In this document: one piece after another, positions 2,501-7,545 of the stretch
Numbering within the stretch: the first letter of the stretch is position 1
Layout: every line of letters starts with the position of its first letter
Assembly: GCA_022560715.1 (NCBI GenBank)
Contig: JADFSQ010000067.1
Location: 1-8,168, forward strand
Source: Bacteroidota bacterium
GTDB lineage: Bacteria > Bacteroidota > Bacteroidia > Flavobacteriales > Flavobacteriaceae
DNA length: 8,168 nt
Direction: 5' to 3'
Position numbers and translations under genes: made by a program
The notes under the pieces: generated by a model
What the model saw: the letters and a program-made list of their open reading frames with translations, nothing else
Told to the model about the DNA's origin: nothing
Databases searched by the model: none

Positions 2501-2576
<76 letters not shown>

Positions 2577-2632: not shown

Positions 2633-2667
2633 TCTGAAATATATGTTGATTTCAGATGATTTTTTTT
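2633..2667 (+). terminator. Second hairpin with T-run before the cytochrome stop
   Basis: An 8-bp perfect inverted repeat (TCTGAAAT at 2633-2640, ATTTCAGA at 2649-2656) is followed by TGA and a run of eight T (2660-2667) on the plus strand. It fits a back-up terminator for the tRNA transcript and blocks plus-strand readthrough into the oppositely oriented cytochrome gene, whose stop codon touches the T-run. On the minus strand it lacks a T-run but could protect the mRNA 3' end. Confidence 0.6.
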
Positions 2668-4153
2668 ATAAACAAAGTAAATAAGATACTAAAGCATCTT
2701 TTTCTTCTTTCGATAATTTCAACTCTAATATTAAATTGAAGAATTCAACAGAGTCATGTAAAGTCATACACCTTCCATCATGAAGATAAGGTGGAGAATC
2801 TTTTATCCCTCTTAATGGAAAAGTTTTTATTGGACCTTCTGGCCTTCCTACATAAAATTTTTCTACTTTTAAATCGTGCATATAATCATCCACAAATGCT
2901 GGTCCGCTGTGACAATTTATACATTTTCCTTTCCCATTAAATATCTTCTCTCCTAAAAGTTCTTGACTAGTGGACTTATTTGGAATAAGTTTATATAATA
3001 TATCTAATTTTGGTGCTGGAGGGAAATCTAAAATTGCATTAAAATCTCCCATTCTATTGGTAACTTGTCTTTGTTGTGACCTTGGACCAATGGCTTGCTG
3101 AATACCAGGATCTCCTTCGAAATATTCTTCCACTTCTGCAAAATGATCCATACTCCTTATAGAGCGTTTTGAAGAGAACTGCATTAAATTGTAATTGCCT
3201 CTCATAGATGGAGTACCAACTCTTAATCTTGCCAGTTGTGGACGCGTATCTGGAGCCACTTCAAATGCTCCATTTGTATGTCCGTTTACATGGCAAGAAA
3301 AACATGAAACTCCTGCACTTGGTTCAAGAGTAACCCTATGGGTTGTATGATTAAAGAAAGTACTAGGAGTTGGTTTTACCAACTCCTTAAGTCCTTCCAA
3401 TTGCTCAGGCGTAAGTAGGCCGTTAAACATTTCAAAATAGTTACTAAGTGTAACTTCTTTTCCTCTGGTTATATCACCATATTCTTTATGTGTAGTCAGG
3501 AACATAGGAGCTGGATATTCAGGTAAATAATTATCAGGTATATCATGATCAACATCTATTCTTTTATGTTCAGGATGATATTTTAAATATTGATTAGGGA
3601 AAACCATATGTGCATTAGTATGTAATGGATGTGCAAGAGGCACATAAGGAAACAAGTTTCTTTCTTTAATCTCTTTGGCTGATAGTTCTGCTAATTCTTC
3701 AAAAGAAGATATCCCTTCAGGTAATTTTGAAATGGGACCCTTCATGACTTGCTTTCTGTTACCAGACATATATACACCCTCTATTGGTTCATTCGAAAAA
3801 TTATATCGTTGGTTCATATACTTCTTAACATCCGCCATCAATTTTGGTTTTTGCGCTTTGTGAAAGGCTACCCATTCGTCCCAACTCATGCCTAAGTCTC
3901 GATCCATAAAGGAGGATTTATCTCTTCCTCCATATTTATATAAATCAAATGGTGTTCTTTCTCCTTTTTTTAAATCAGGAAACTTAAGTAGTTTATCTAT
4001 ATAGTTATCCCCTAATCCATAATCACTTTCTTTGTAGTCTTCAATTATAGCACCAGGGCTTTGAAGCATGAACAAATTTCTGTCAGCAATTTGAAAGCCA
4101 ACAACACCAACAAAAAGTATAATGCCTCCTACCAAAAATAATTTTTTATTCAT
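2666..4153 (-). CDS. Membrane-anchored di-haem c cytochrome, CCP/MauG-like
   Basis: A 495-residue protein with an N-terminal hydrophobic segment (residues 5-20) and no obvious cleavage site, so probably anchored with its body in the periplasm. Two haem c sites are visible, CFSCH (284-288) and CINCH (411-415). Their spacing and the C-terminal YLHDGRCMTLHDSVEFF (457-472) resemble the cytochrome c peroxidase/MauG superfamily. Unlike classical bacterial peroxidases, about 280 residues precede the first haem. This region has a His-rich part (H175, H178, H182, H193, H196, H203) and no CxxCH. It begins 33 bases after the nod stop, so it is almost certainly co-transcribed with nod. The role is inferred only: electron transfer to or from the neighbouring NO-metabolising enzyme, or peroxide or NO chemistry. 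I cannot assign a substrate. Confidence 0.85.
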   Translation of the reverse strand: MNKKLFLVGGIILFVGVVGFQIADRNLFMLQSPGAIIEDYKESDYGLGDNYIDKLLKFPDLKKGERTPFDLYKYGGRDKSSFMDRDLGMSWDEWVAFHKAQKPKLMADVKKYMNQRYNFSNEPIEGVYMSGNRKQVMKGPISKLPEGISSFEELAELSAKEIKERNLFPYVPLAHPLHTNAHMVFPNQYLKYHPEHKRIDVDHDIPDNYLPEYPAPMFLTTHKEYGDITRGKEVTLSNYFEMFNGLLTPEQLEGLKELVKPTPSTFFNHTTHRVTLEPSAGVSCFSCHVNGHTNGAFEVAPDTRPQLARLRVGTPSMRGNYNLMQFSSKRSIRSMDHFAEVEEYFEGDPGIQQAIGPRSQQRQVTNRMGDFNAILDFPPAPKLDILYKLIPNKSTSQELLGEKIFNGKGKCINCHSGPAFVDDYMHDLKVEKFYVGRPEGPIKTFPLRGIKDSPPYLHDGRCMTLHDSVEFFNLILELKLSKEEKDALVSYLLCL

Positions 4154-4186: not shown

Positions 4187-6580
4187 TTATATATTACTTT
4201 CTTCGTGTTCAGTTACTTGAAGCTTATCTCTTTTGAAATCTACAAATGAGTCTCCTGCTTTTTTTAATGAGCGTACTCTGGACACAATAAACCAAGTTAA
4301 AGGAATAACACCCCCAAATATAAATACAGTAGCACCAATACCTCGCAACCATGTCAGAGTTTCAAAAGTTGAACCAATTATAAAATCATTGGAGCGGGCA
4401 AACCATAGACCATTATCTAAAACCGCTTTAAACTGTATAACACCTGCAGGGAACACATCTAGAACTACCATGAGCATCAAACCCACGTTTATGGACCAAA
4501 ATGAAACCCTGATTACTGTTCTGTTCCAGCGAGCAGGTTTAAACAAAATCTTAGAAGCAAAGATCATAGCTGCAAGTGAAATATTACCATATACACCCAT
4601 TAATGCGGCATGGGCATGATTGACCGTAAGATAGGTACCATGTTCAAAAAAGTTTATGATAGGCAGGTTTATAATGATTCCCAACACACCGGCTCCAAAA
4701 AAATTCCAGAAATTCACGGCAATTAGGAATAAAAAGACTTCGGGAAACGCAAAATCTGTTAATCTTTGTCTTACTTTTCCTTTACCGTCTCCTCTATTTA
4801 GTGATAATAAAGGCATATTTTTGAATCTCCAAGCTTCAACAGTCAATAAAATTAGTGGTACAAACTGAAGCGTAGAAAAAACACTTCCCAATGCCAGTAT
4901 TGCTACTGGTTTTGCATTCCAATAAAAATTATGTGATATACCCAGAAGCCCAGTTCCGAGAAATAACAGAACGGATATATATATCACTCTTATCGCTGCC
5001 TGACGACTTACTAGCCTCATCAATACCATCAAATAACTGATTAGAACGGTTACAAAAACTTCAAAAAAGGCTTCAATCCACATGTGTATAACCATCCATC
5101 GCCAAAAGTCTGCAATCACAAAATTAGTTTCTGGACCGGCAACAAAACCTGAAATAAAAAAAATGGGGATACCGATAACCGAATACAATATCCAATTTGG
5201 TAAGTTCCATGGCTGCCCTTTAATAAAAGCTGGTTTCACACCTCTATAAACAATGAATCCCCAAAGAATAAAAACAACCATTAATAAACCTTGGAATAAT
5301 TTTCCAAAATCCATATACTCCCATCCCTGATGTCCGAGCCAATACCACCAATCTCCCAACAAGCCTTTTGGTCCAAGAAACATTCCGATCAAGGAGCCAA
5401 CTACCATAATAATAAGAAGTACAAACAATAGGTTAATCAATCCTAATTGCCCCTTTATATCTCCTTTTGATAACATAGGTAGAATAAATATAGAAGAAGC
5501 AATCCAACACGTTGAAATCCAATAAAGGGAAATCATAAGGTGGTAACTTCGAGTAACAGTAATTGGTATTTCATCTGATATATTTATTCCTACAATGCCT
5601 AAGAAATCAATGAACTCATTTAGTGTCAGCACTCCACTTAATACCTGAATTAAGAAAAGAATAATAGCCACAAAAAAGAATTTGAAAGATGCCTTTTGTG
5701 TCTTTGTTGGTGAGAACTTATTAATCTCTTCTAAAGTCAAAAAACCGCTGGTGCCAGGTTTGAAAAATTTATTTGGCAGTTGATTATATTGACCTATAAA
5801 ATAAAGTACAATTCCGCAAGCCAAAACGAATGCCAAAAGACCAATAACACTCCATAAAATTACAGGAGACGTAGGGTTGTTCCCAGCATCGGGGTCATAA
5901 GGCCAGTTATGGGTGTAACTGTATTCCTTTCCAGGTCGCTTTGCACCACAAATCCATGCTCCCCAAAAAAAGAAATCACTTAAATCCGAAACTTCTTGCC
6001 TGTCTGAGATGTATCCTTCTGGCGGAAAAGAATCATCTGTATTAGCATCGATAAAAACATTAGTATAATATTCCCTTAATCCTTTTAATGCATAAACTTG
6101 TGCATCTGATAATGTGACAACATTCTCCTTCTCATCATATCTGTTTTCCTTTATTTCATCTTTTACATTCTCCTTTATGATTTTCAATTCCATATCCGAA
6201 AGTTCCCGCCCATTTTCCTTTCTAAATTCTTCTGCAAGGTATTCAGTCATTAACAGCACGACCTGATGCAATGCTTCAGCAGTATAATCTGGTCCTCTTT
6301 GAGCACCGTCGCCAAAAAATGATCCATATTCCATCAATGCATACTTGTGGAATACCTCTTGCCCATCTTCAATAGTTGACTTGGTTATTAGATATTCTCC
6401 CGAATTCGTTTGAAAACCAGTCATTGGTGGTGCTTCACTATAGGTTTGATACCCAATCAACCCGACTCCAGCAATGCTAATGATAAGGATGAACAATAAT
6501 GGTTTCCACCAATTTTTAGTTTGCATAAAGAAATTCAGACTTCCCTTTGAACTATTATTAAATGAATATTCTTTCTTCAT
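4187..6580 (-). CDS. nod: Putative nitric oxide dismutase (qNor-like, H-to-N active site)
   Basis: A 797-residue inner-membrane haem-copper-oxidase superfamily protein with qNor layout. It has one helix (about 28-45), a periplasmic cytochrome-c-like domain without haem (about 46-236; EAPPMTGF, GPDYTAE) and about 13 further helices. Haem ligands are present: H347 (RSYH), H655 and H657 (LTVNHAHAALMG). FeB-site residues H499, E503 and E507 (HMWIEAFFE) and H550 are kept, but the partner of H550 is N551 (SHNFYW, codon AAT at 4928-4930), where qNor has HH. The qNor quinol pocket is also lost: N321, D325, I329 and A750 replace H328, E332, F336 and D746 (Geobacillus numbering, from memory). Both changes mark the proposed NO dismutases (2 NO -> N2 + O2) related to Methylomirabilis oxyfera. 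The alternative is a non-canonical NO reductase. ATG at 6580 is assumed; M19 (6526) is another possible start. Confidence 0.85.
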   Translation of the reverse strand: MKKEYSFNNSSKGSLNFFMQTKNWWKPLLFILIISIAGVGLIGYQTYSEAPPMTGFQTNSGEYLITKSTIEDGQEVFHKYALMEYGSFFGDGAQRGPDYTAEALHQVVLLMTEYLAEEFRKENGRELSDMELKIIKENVKDEIKENRYDEKENVVTLSDAQVYALKGLREYYTNVFIDANTDDSFPPEGYISDRQEVSDLSDFFFWGAWICGAKRPGKEYSYTHNWPYDPDAGNNPTSPVILWSVIGLLAFVLACGIVLYFIGQYNQLPNKFFKPGTSGFLTLEEINKFSPTKTQKASFKFFFVAIILFLIQVLSGVLTLNEFIDFLGIVGINISDEIPITVTRSYHLMISLYWISTCWIASSIFILPMLSKGDIKGQLGLINLLFVLLIIMVVGSLIGMFLGPKGLLGDWWYWLGHQGWEYMDFGKLFQGLLMVVFILWGFIVYRGVKPAFIKGQPWNLPNWILYSVIGIPIFFISGFVAGPETNFVIADFWRWMVIHMWIEAFFEVFVTVLISYLMVLMRLVSRQAAIRVIYISVLLFLGTGLLGISHNFYWNAKPVAILALGSVFSTLQFVPLILLTVEAWRFKNMPLLSLNRGDGKGKVRQRLTDFAFPEVFLFLIAVNFWNFFGAGVLGIIINLPIINFFEHGTYLTVNHAHAALMGVYGNISLAAMIFASKILFKPARWNRTVIRVSFWSINVGLMLMVVLDVFPAGVIQFKAVLDNGLWFARSNDFIIGSTFETLTWLRGIGATVFIFGGVIPLTWFIVSRVRSLKKAGDSFVDFKRDKLQVTEHEESNI

Positions 6581-6621: not shown

Positions 6622-6649
6622 GGAACAGATAGACAGCTTTAGAAACAAT

Positions 6650-6681
6650 GTTATACAACACAAAAGAATGTGTTCTATAAC
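6650..6681. promoter_or_regulatory. Long inverted repeat upstream of nod (operator or hairpin)
   Basis: GTTATACAACAC (6650-6661) and GTGTTCTATAAC (6670-6681) form 12-base arms with a single mismatch around an 8-base spacer. The dyad lies between the regulator gene and nod, about 85 bases from the nod ATG. No T-run follows on either strand, which argues against a simple terminator. A dimeric regulator site is the more attractive reading; a leader or 3'-end hairpin is possible. Confidence 0.5.
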
Positions 6682-6713
6682 AAATTATACTAAAGCATAT
6701 GAAGTTAATTATA

Positions 6714-6816: not shown

Positions 6817-7545
6817 CTACCCAAAAACACTTAAATCCTTTAATGCCTTTAGGTTTTTAATTTTTATATCTCGTTGATTGGTTTCAATTAAGTTTTCTTT
6901 AGAAAAAGAAGAAAGAACTCTACTCACATTTGACGCAGTCATATTTGATAAGGCAGCAAGATCCTGTCGCTTTAATAAAACTGCTAATGTACCATTTGGA
7001 TAAGTGCCATAAACTTCATCAATTAAAAGCAAGGCATCTGCCATACGTGCTCTTATATGCTTATGAATATTGTTGAACATACGGTTATCCAATTCATTCA
7101 ATTCTTGAGCAAATAAATTAATTATTTTAAAGGCAAGTTGTTTGTTGGCTTCTATAACTTTGAAAAAGTCTGTTTTATCAATTATACAAACTTCAACTTC
7201 CTCTAAAGCAATAATTGATGATAAGTAAATGTTGTCACTCATTAAAGCACGAAAACCAATAAAATCTACCGGTTTTTTTAATGCAACAATTAGTTCCGTT
7301 CCGTTATCACTTCTCCTAATAATTTTTACTTTCCCCTTATTTAAACAAATTAAACCTAAAGGCTTTGTACCTTCTTTACAGATAGTTTCACCTGTTTTAT
7401 AAGAAACTATATATCTGTTCTTGTTTAATATTTTCAGTTCATCATAACTTAATTCGTTTAAAAGAGAATAATCTCTTTTAGCACAATTCTCACAAGTGTT
7501 TTTTTTAGTATTTAAAGACGGACATGAAGTTGTATTAAAAAGCAT
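6817..7545 (-). CDS. Crp/Fnr-family regulator with FNR-like cysteines
   Basis: A 242-residue cytoplasmic transcription factor. Residues about 35-135 form the cyclic-nucleotide-binding-like beta-roll (YKTGETICKEGTKPLGLICL, NKGKVKI). A long dimerisation helix follows (about 135-178), then a winged helix-turn-helix (about 185-232; LKRQDLAALSNMTASNVSRVL). Cysteines C8, C18 and C21 lie before the roll and C120 (EVCIIDKTDFF) falls where E. coli FNR has C122 (SMVCEIPFETL), so an oxygen- or NO-sensitive iron-sulphur cluster is plausible. The spacing C-x9-C-x2-C differs from FNR's C-x2-C-x5-C. In the recognition helix, S205 stands where FNR and CRP have a DNA-contacting Glu (E-x2-S/G-R), hinting at a different operator. 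It lies 236 bases upstream of nod on the same strand and is its likely regulator, by position. Confidence 0.9.
   Translation of the reverse strand: MLFNTTSCPSLNTKKNTCENCAKRDYSLLNELSYDELKILNKNRYIVSYKTGETICKEGTKPLGLICLNKGKVKIIRRSDNGTELIVALKKPVDFIGFRALMSDNIYLSSIIALEEVEVCIIDKTDFFKVIEANKQLAFKIINLFAQELNELDNRMFNNIHKHIRARMADALLLIDEVYGTYPNGTLAVLLKRQDLAALSNMTASNVSRVLSSFSKENLIETNQRDIKIKNLKALKDLSVFG

Follow-up and report, generated by a model that had tools for sequence, protein, structure and literature searches.

The closest described systems are the putative nitric oxide (NO) dismutases (Nod), relatives of the quinol NO reductases (qNOR) that are proposed to turn NO into N2 and O2. In the passages of Ettwig et al. 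(2012; PMC3413370) devoted to them, the Nod marks are described for Candidatus Methylomirabilis oxyfera (DAMO_2434 and DAMO_2437), strain HdN1 and Muricauda ruestringensis (accessions CBE69496, CBE69502, CBL45628 and G2PJH6), and loss of the quinol site together with changes in the proton path is argued there to compromise reduction, which is the published argument for dismutation. Excerpts of later reports place nod in metagenome-assembled genomes (MAGs) of Sediminibacterium and Algoriphagus (2023; PMC10264387) and count 66 nod MAGs, mostly of Pseudomonadota and then of Bacteroidota (2026; PMC13386854). Here, a further nod gene is described from a stretch of 8,168 nucleotides, the whole of which is called the window (contig JADFSQ010000067.1 of the Bacteroidota assembly GCA_022560715.1, Flavobacteriaceae). 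Judged from its sequence, this gene almost certainly encodes a member of the Nod family, and the protein probably dismutates NO to N2 and O2 without light.

The original prediction for this stretch had proposed a putative NO dismutase on the basis of one His-to-Asn change, and had considered oxygen production without light in a flavobacterium a striking capability. The family assignment turned out to be stronger than was claimed. Since the Nod of M. ruestringensis was published in 2012, the capability would not be a first for flavobacteria, and the distribution of nosZ reported below also fits a role in making N2O. New here are figures for how often nod carriers also have nosZ or another NO reductase, a paired palindrome upstream of nod, and the pairing of nod with a peroxidase-type gene in three lineages. 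No nosZ count for nod-carrying Bacteroidota was found in the literature searched; Murali et al. (2022, 2024), Ruff et al. (2024) and a 2025 cold-seep paper may hold one.

Active-site residues of the Nod protein

The protein is composed of a NorB cytochrome-c-like domain without a haem motif (PF22085, residues 57–228) and a haem-copper oxidase core (residues 298–752). In the alignment with the qNOR of Geobacillus stearothermophilus (3ayf), N551 stands in the place of H560, the second histidine ligand of the FeB site; both the codons CAT-AAT and the alignment bear out the pair H550-N551 that had been read from the DNA. The other FeB-site residues and the haem ligands had been described as intact, and indeed H347, H499, E503, E507, H550, H655 and H657 are all retained. 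Further published marks of the family, overlooked in the original prediction, became apparent in the same alignment: Q572 takes the place of the catalytic-site glutamate E581, and the quinol site is altered as well, with N321, D325 and A750 aligned to H328, E332 and D746, respectively. F336 of 3ayf corresponds to I329. The His-to-Asn change had been called a hallmark of putative NO dismutases, and all of the marks given in the passages of Ettwig et al. (2012) are present in the window protein. With the glutamate lost and the quinol site changed, the protein is unlikely to carry out ordinary quinol-driven NO reduction.

A structure model based on 135 sequences had its best fold match in the qNOR 3ayf, with 36–38% identity in structure alignments. 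It supersedes an earlier model from 30 sequences, in which the mean predicted local distance difference test score (pLDDT) of the active site was 67. In the NCBIfam scan the window protein was matched by no model, so that it has no curated name; three close homologues (P0003, P0004 and P0015) are named nitric oxide dismutase by JGI. A motif search found CxxCH in none of 81 Nod-cluster proteins.

Conservation and phylogenetic position of Nod

Near homologues were taken as the best 120 of 1844 matches (E up to 0.001), the window's own row included and the others 68–84% identical. All 120 carry GISHNFYWN with N551; Q572 is present in 119, N321 in 118 and A750 in 116. A distant set consisted of the best 120 of 1023 matches to the divergent tandem Nod of locus L053 (loci and genomes are given below as L and G numbers) and contains, where taxa are named, Gammaproteobacteria, Acidobacteriota, Rhodobacteraceae and others. 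In 3ayf numbering, N560 and Q581 occur in 120/120 of these, and H328 or D746 in none. When both lists of best 120 are pooled, Asn is found in 240/240 and Gln in 239/240, and HNFYW is present in 316 distinct sequences among the 346 collected. This constancy of Asn and Gln across the sets shows that the His-to-Asn change is fixed throughout a large family.

The proteins of 80 named loci and a few others were aligned as 85 Nod rows, four of which are duplicates (L001 and L002 both come from the window, L003 equals L033 and L004 equals L035). N560 and Q581 occur together in 85/85 rows and D746 in none, L046 and L098 being gapped there. In the canonical qNORs, of which 27 came from the window's family and the others are 3ayf and 6qq5, H560, E581, H328, E332 and D746 are present in 29/29.

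In a 58-row tree a branch with top support sets all Nod rows (41/41) apart from the others, and the same was obtained in a 175-row FastTree tree (161/161). The window protein shares a well-supported Nod clade, apart from the canonical qNORs, with homologues of Muricauda species (L052, L056 and L058); Muricauda is the genus named in 2012 and was also mentioned in the original prediction among relatives in Flavobacteriaceae. Placement among proven NO reductases, which would have spoken against the original prediction, was not obtained, although in a tree rooted with cytochrome c NO reductases (cNOR) the Nod clade emerges among the qNORs.

Pairwise comparison of coding sequences gave a nonsynonymous divergence (dN) of 0.10–0.16 and a synonymous divergence (dS) of at least 1.78, which is near or beyond saturation; by this measure nod is demonstrably under purifying selection. 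Decay or a sequencing error at N551 is ruled out by the invariant GISHNFYWN or Asn of the homologues and by the low dN relative to dS; decay had already been argued against from the intact ligands.

Locus L053 (7974–12978, Flavobacteriales MAG) holds two tandem Nods, of which the second shares 42–44% identity with the window protein and falls into a group that is otherwise named, where named, Proteobacteria and other phyla, with N560 and Q581 throughout the distant set. The nods in records titled Chlorobiota (L033) and Thermoanaerobaculia (L050) nest among Bacteroidota in the tree. L033 shares its match start with G232 of the window's family and has the coaX/bamG order of the window, so that at least the label of the L033 MAG is likely wrong. 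In a plasmid collection of 318 records no match of at least 60% identity was found, and 25 were listed at 33–36%. The viral collection contained a single, broken Nod homologue; in L112 (5064–6581, on a 231-kb IMG/VR contig) a Nod-like frame lacks residues 428–614, the metal-site region, with the reading frame intact.

nosZ and other NO reductases in nod carriers

The window genome (G000) is a MAG of 2.38 Mb in 444 contigs with a completeness of 81.6%. It is assigned to one family with G225, whose match coordinates agree with those of the Cerina litoralis genome (L035, in G301); Cerina is listed under Flavobacteriaceae, so this is the family of the host. On contig C301 it contains nosZ together with nosL, nosD, an ABC ATPase and a cytochrome c. 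A set of 48 distinct nod carriers, namely G000, G232 and 46 of the 80 named loci, was picked for longer contigs and spread before nosZ results were available; it was drawn from the best Nod matches and not at random. G225 was left out as the same genome as G301, and G088 and G292, which have no Nod, are not carriers. nosZ above the curated cut-off was identified in 44/48 carriers, the window genome included (misses were G308, G313, G316 and G340), compared with 127/395 genomes of a phylum sample, 107/298 of the family of G302 and 139/299 of the window's family (33–46% in the two family samples). Fisher tests, in which kinship is ignored and the comparison sets may include unrecognised nod carriers, resulted in p values of 3e-16 for all nod carriers (44/48 vs 123/390) and 3e-6 within the family of G302 (12/12 recognised carriers vs 95/286 others); within the window's family the difference was not significant (3/3 carriers vs 136/296, p 0.10). 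Apart from the window's own genome, the phylum sample was assembled irrespective of nod; it contains five clear Nod genomes of at least 53% identity (G000, G442, G448, G504 and G713), and nosZ is present in all of these but G448; G707 (39%) and a short G527 fragment were excluded as uncertain.

Carriers of a canonical qNOR had nosZ in 9/32 cases in the phylum sample and 13/28 in the family sample, and carriers of a cNOR-like protein in 7/12 (a partial G527 match excluded) and 30/33, respectively. These qNOR and cNOR-like counts are lower bounds, as they depend on cut-offs of 1e-20 and 1e-15 with two or three candidates scored per genome, and cNOR-like denotes a 25–30% match of about 445–493 residues, the cNOR motif itself having been read in only five loci. 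A qNOR or cNOR-like match was found in 16/48 nod carriers, and four more (G304, G326, G336 and G339) have a NOR-like oxidase near nod. At most 28/48 carriers are without another recognised NO reductase, which is an upper bound because unclassified haem-copper matches, for example in G301, G305 and G330, were assigned neither to the NO reductases nor elsewhere; 26 of these 28 have nosZ. As a candidate for a terminal oxidase that would consume the O2, at least one haem-copper match besides Nod occurs in 45/48 carriers, and none was found in the window genome, G316 and G317, which carries little weight in incomplete MAGs; both haem-copper matches of G316 are taken to be its two Nods.

Among NO-forming nitrite reductases, NirK was above the cut-off in 9/48 carriers and NirS scored more than 300 bits in 2 more, and a NirK piece in G305 stayed below the cut-off. 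Neither was recognised in 37/48, the window genome among them, which suggests that these bacteria rely on outside NO unless the gene was missed.

A haem-copper protein of 449–491 residues with HHIY..LP, and with SMTE at the position of the cNOR glutamate, is encoded near nod in 11/80 loci (L099, 6142–7560 on the minus strand; L038, L066, L091, L092, L094, L095, L100, L103, L107 and L111), and in 10 of these 11 it is accompanied by a one-haem cytochrome c of about 146 residues. The nearest solved structure to the L099 protein is a cNOR (3e-20), and its score is far below the ccoN cut-off; possibly these proteins represent an unnamed NO reductase type. Canonical cNOR (GTGHHYYY..FSALE) is found at most 8 kb from nod in L071, L088, L102, L104 and L110, which indicates that some bacteria retain both. 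In three genomes with cNOR and nod (G340, G341 and G344), nirK lies close by on the same contig.

Proposed function and alternative explanations

Dismutation is supported by the residue signature, the separate clade, the qNOR-like fold, the published argument, and a gene setting with Rrf2-family regulators and RIC in other loci and a Crp/Fnr-linked box in the loci that have this regulator. The window protein would bind haem b, haem b3 and a non-haem metal, with H499, H550, E503 and N551 as metal ligands instead of three histidines. It would take up NO but probably would not reduce it with quinol electrons; two NO molecules would be bound and rearranged with no net external electrons. The NO that it uses may be exogenous, because the incomplete window genome yielded no NO-forming nitrite reductase. 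Expression of nod would be controlled by the linked Crp/Fnr regulator, perhaps under NO or low oxygen, and the presumably periplasmic di-haem peroxidase-like protein encoded next to nod could remove peroxide or exchange electrons with the Nod system.

Several observations weigh against dismutation. According to the relevant passages of PMC13386854, O2 formation has been demonstrated for no purified Nod. H328 persists in 27 of the 85 Nod rows, and loss of the quinol site is thus not uniform; these rows are L086–L097 and L099–L111, which are of the Algoriphagus, Cecembia and Chitinophagaceae type and carry Gly at both 332 and 746, and those of Cerina litoralis (L004 and L035), a near relative of the window protein. 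The structure model is weaker at the H550-N551 turn, with block pLDDT values of 76 and 67. Nod itself is the only haem-copper protein found in the window genome at its completeness of 81.6%, and in Pfam and NCBIfam scans no O2-using monooxygenase adjoins nod in the window. The anaerobic ribonucleotide reductase NrdD is encoded beside nod in 11/80 loci and its activase NrdG in 13/80 (L059, L064, L068, L078, L090 and others), which is odd company for an oxygen-making enzyme. Finally, a dismutase would have no need of NosZ, and nosZ is kept by 44 of the 48 carriers.

The nosZ pattern could be explained if the Bacteroidota Nod were an unusual NO reductase whose product is N2O and whose electrons come from a c-type protein of the periplasm instead of quinol, with NosZ in the same cell completing the path to N2; this is regarded as possible but doubtful. 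It would agree with the high nosZ frequency in nod carriers relative to the phylum and both families, with the up to 28 carriers without another recognised NO reductase, nearly all of which have nosZ, and with the di-haem protein encoded immediately downstream of nod. Canonical qNOR showed no such link to nosZ, and cNOR-like proteins were linked to it in the family and less so in the phylum. Passages of Fuchsman et al. (2017; PMC5723336) propose N2O formation by marine Nod-like genes, based on depth profiles and nosZ in some carriers. Moreover, M. oxyfera, from which the dismutase idea originates, is without a recognisable nosZ in the account of PMC3413370; its case is persuasive partly because N2 is made in spite of this, and that support is absent in the Bacteroidota carriers, which mostly keep nosZ. 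On the other hand, the glutamate on which NO reductases rely is replaced and most of their quinol site altered, nosZ occurs in many genomes of the window's family that have no NO reductase match at the threshold used, and a shared anoxic habitat can account for the association of nod with nosZ. The carriers were a non-random set, the phylum sample includes only five clear nod carriers (four with nosZ), and the window's family gave no significant difference. Some of the unclassified haem-copper proteins may be NO reductases, and the peroxidase-like neighbour occurs in only three of the lineages examined. A split denitrification is tentatively considered, in which the Nod of Bacteroidota would be the NO-consuming step rather than an oxygen-making bypass: exogenous NO would be converted to N2O without quinol, through a c-type partner such as the di-haem protein, and N2O would be passed on to NosZ.

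A relative that has decayed or does not catalyse, and serves for instance as an NO sink or sensor, is improbable; such a role would suit the missing metal ligand and catalytic-site glutamate, but not the near-invariance of N560 and Q581 in the listed homologues or the low dN relative to dS. A canonical qNOR with an odd residue, serving ordinary NO detoxification, is highly improbable despite 3ayf being the best fold match, as ordinary qNOR identity is rejected by the trees and by the joint presence of N560 and Q581 in all Nod rows and in 0/29 qNORs.

Whether Nod produces O2 or N2O decides between a hidden oxygen source and a greenhouse-gas step, and if N2O is the product, the name NO dismutase would be wrong for a large group of proteins. 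The gene, the predicted regulator box and nosZ in the same genome permit a clean test in strain-named nod-carrying relatives such as Cerina litoralis and Muricauda sp.

Gene neighbourhood and predicted operator

On the minus strand, the gene of a Crp/Fnr-family regulator is followed by a 236-bp gap, nod and the gene of a 495-residue di-haem protein, and past tRNA-Phe by coaX and bamG (Table 1).

Table 1. Features of the nod locus in the window; residues replaced are those of qNOR 3ayf.
Feature	Position	Strand	Remark
nod, 797-aa Nod-family membrane protein, qNOR-like	4187..6580	-	Uninterrupted frame 6580-4187
Codons of H550-N551	4928..4933	-	CAT 4931-4933, AAT 4928-4930; N551 aligns with FeB ligand H560 of 3ayf
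Codon of Q572, in place of catalytic-site E581	4865..4867	-	Alignment with 3ayf
Codon of N321, in place of quinol-binding H328	5618..5620	-	Alignment with 3ayf
Codon of D325, in place of quinol-site E332	5606..5608	-	Alignment with 3ayf
Codon of A750, in place of quinol-binding D746	4331..4333	-	Alignment with 3ayf
Di-haem c-type protein, bacterial cytochrome c peroxidase/MauG kind	2666..4153	-	CxxCH at residues 284 and 411; follows nod after 33 bp
Crp/Fnr-family regulator	6817..7545	-	PF00027 and PF13545; reaches no NCBIfam equivalog cut-off; upstream of nod on the same strand
Palindrome TGTTNNNNAACA, copy 1	6649..6660	+	68 bp from nod start codon
Palindrome TGTTNNNNAACA, copy 2	6671..6682	+	Starts 22 bp from start of copy 1
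tRNA-Phe	2501..2576	+	tRNA prediction; flanks nod locus, then coaX and bamG

The di-haem protein had no Pfam match and gave weak matches to MauG-like NCBIfam models and to the di-haem peroxidase 1iqc (9.4e-6). Its gene has a dN well below dS and is probably co-transcribed with nod. Among the loci examined, an orthologue lies beside nod only in L032 (83%) and L043 (73%); in L034 a 90-residue match was found 6 kb away.

An orthologue of the regulator is located directly upstream of nod in L033, L034, L035, L043 and L046, and further upstream in L032. Within the window the palindrome matches exactly at only two places, and these both lie in the gap between regulator and nod; 0.38 matches were expected for the window, and at least two were also obtained in 14/200 whole-window shuffles. 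The pair with 22-bp spacing is found in L033 and L043 as well. The box is present in 6/6 regulator-linked nod loci and in 1/74 other nod upstream regions, but since it was derived from an alignment of seven upstream regions, its presence in those seven is not independent evidence. The pair is predicted to be the operator of the linked Crp/Fnr regulator. A similar nosZ operator was considered and rejected: there is no exact match before nosZ in the window's own genome, and the sole match on that contig lies inside nosD.

In L033 the order is regulator, nod, tRNA-Phe, coaX and bamG, and the peroxidase gene is absent. Two genomes of the same genus, G088 and G292 (87% and 84% complete), have no Nod match. 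The common position at tRNA-Phe and the missing Nod in these two genomes suggest that the nod cassette may be mobile.

Elsewhere, 55/80 nod loci encode near nod a regulator of the Rrf2 family, to which NsrR and IscR belong, that scores below the cut-off of either, and 17/80 encode RIC, a repair protein for NO-damaged iron-sulphur centres.

Comparison with known systems

The canonical qNOR of G. stearothermophilus shares with the window protein its fold, the haem-less N-terminal cytochrome-c-like domain and the haem ligands, whereas H560, E581, H328, E332 and D746 are all five changed. With the cNOR subunit NorB (3o0r and 4xyd) only the fold of the catalytic core is common; the window Nod is a single chain with an extra N-terminal domain and altered metal-site residues, and no NorC-like neighbour is found in the window. 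The putative Nods of M. ruestringensis, M. oxyfera and HdN1, as described in the passages of PMC3413370, have the same His-to-Asn change at the FeB site, the adjoining Glu-to-Gln change and a changed quinol site, and likewise keep the other histidines and the fold. The window genome differs from that of M. oxyfera, given there as lacking a recognisable nosZ, by its nos cluster, and the window differs from the M. oxyfera and HdN1 systems in containing no methane or alkane monooxygenase. Burkholderiales nod loci are described in PMC13386854, in the passages on gene context, as containing two cytochrome c peroxidase genes; the window has one peroxidase-type gene and belongs to another lineage, but in both a protein of this type adjoins nod, and the link between Nod and peroxidases may therefore be general.

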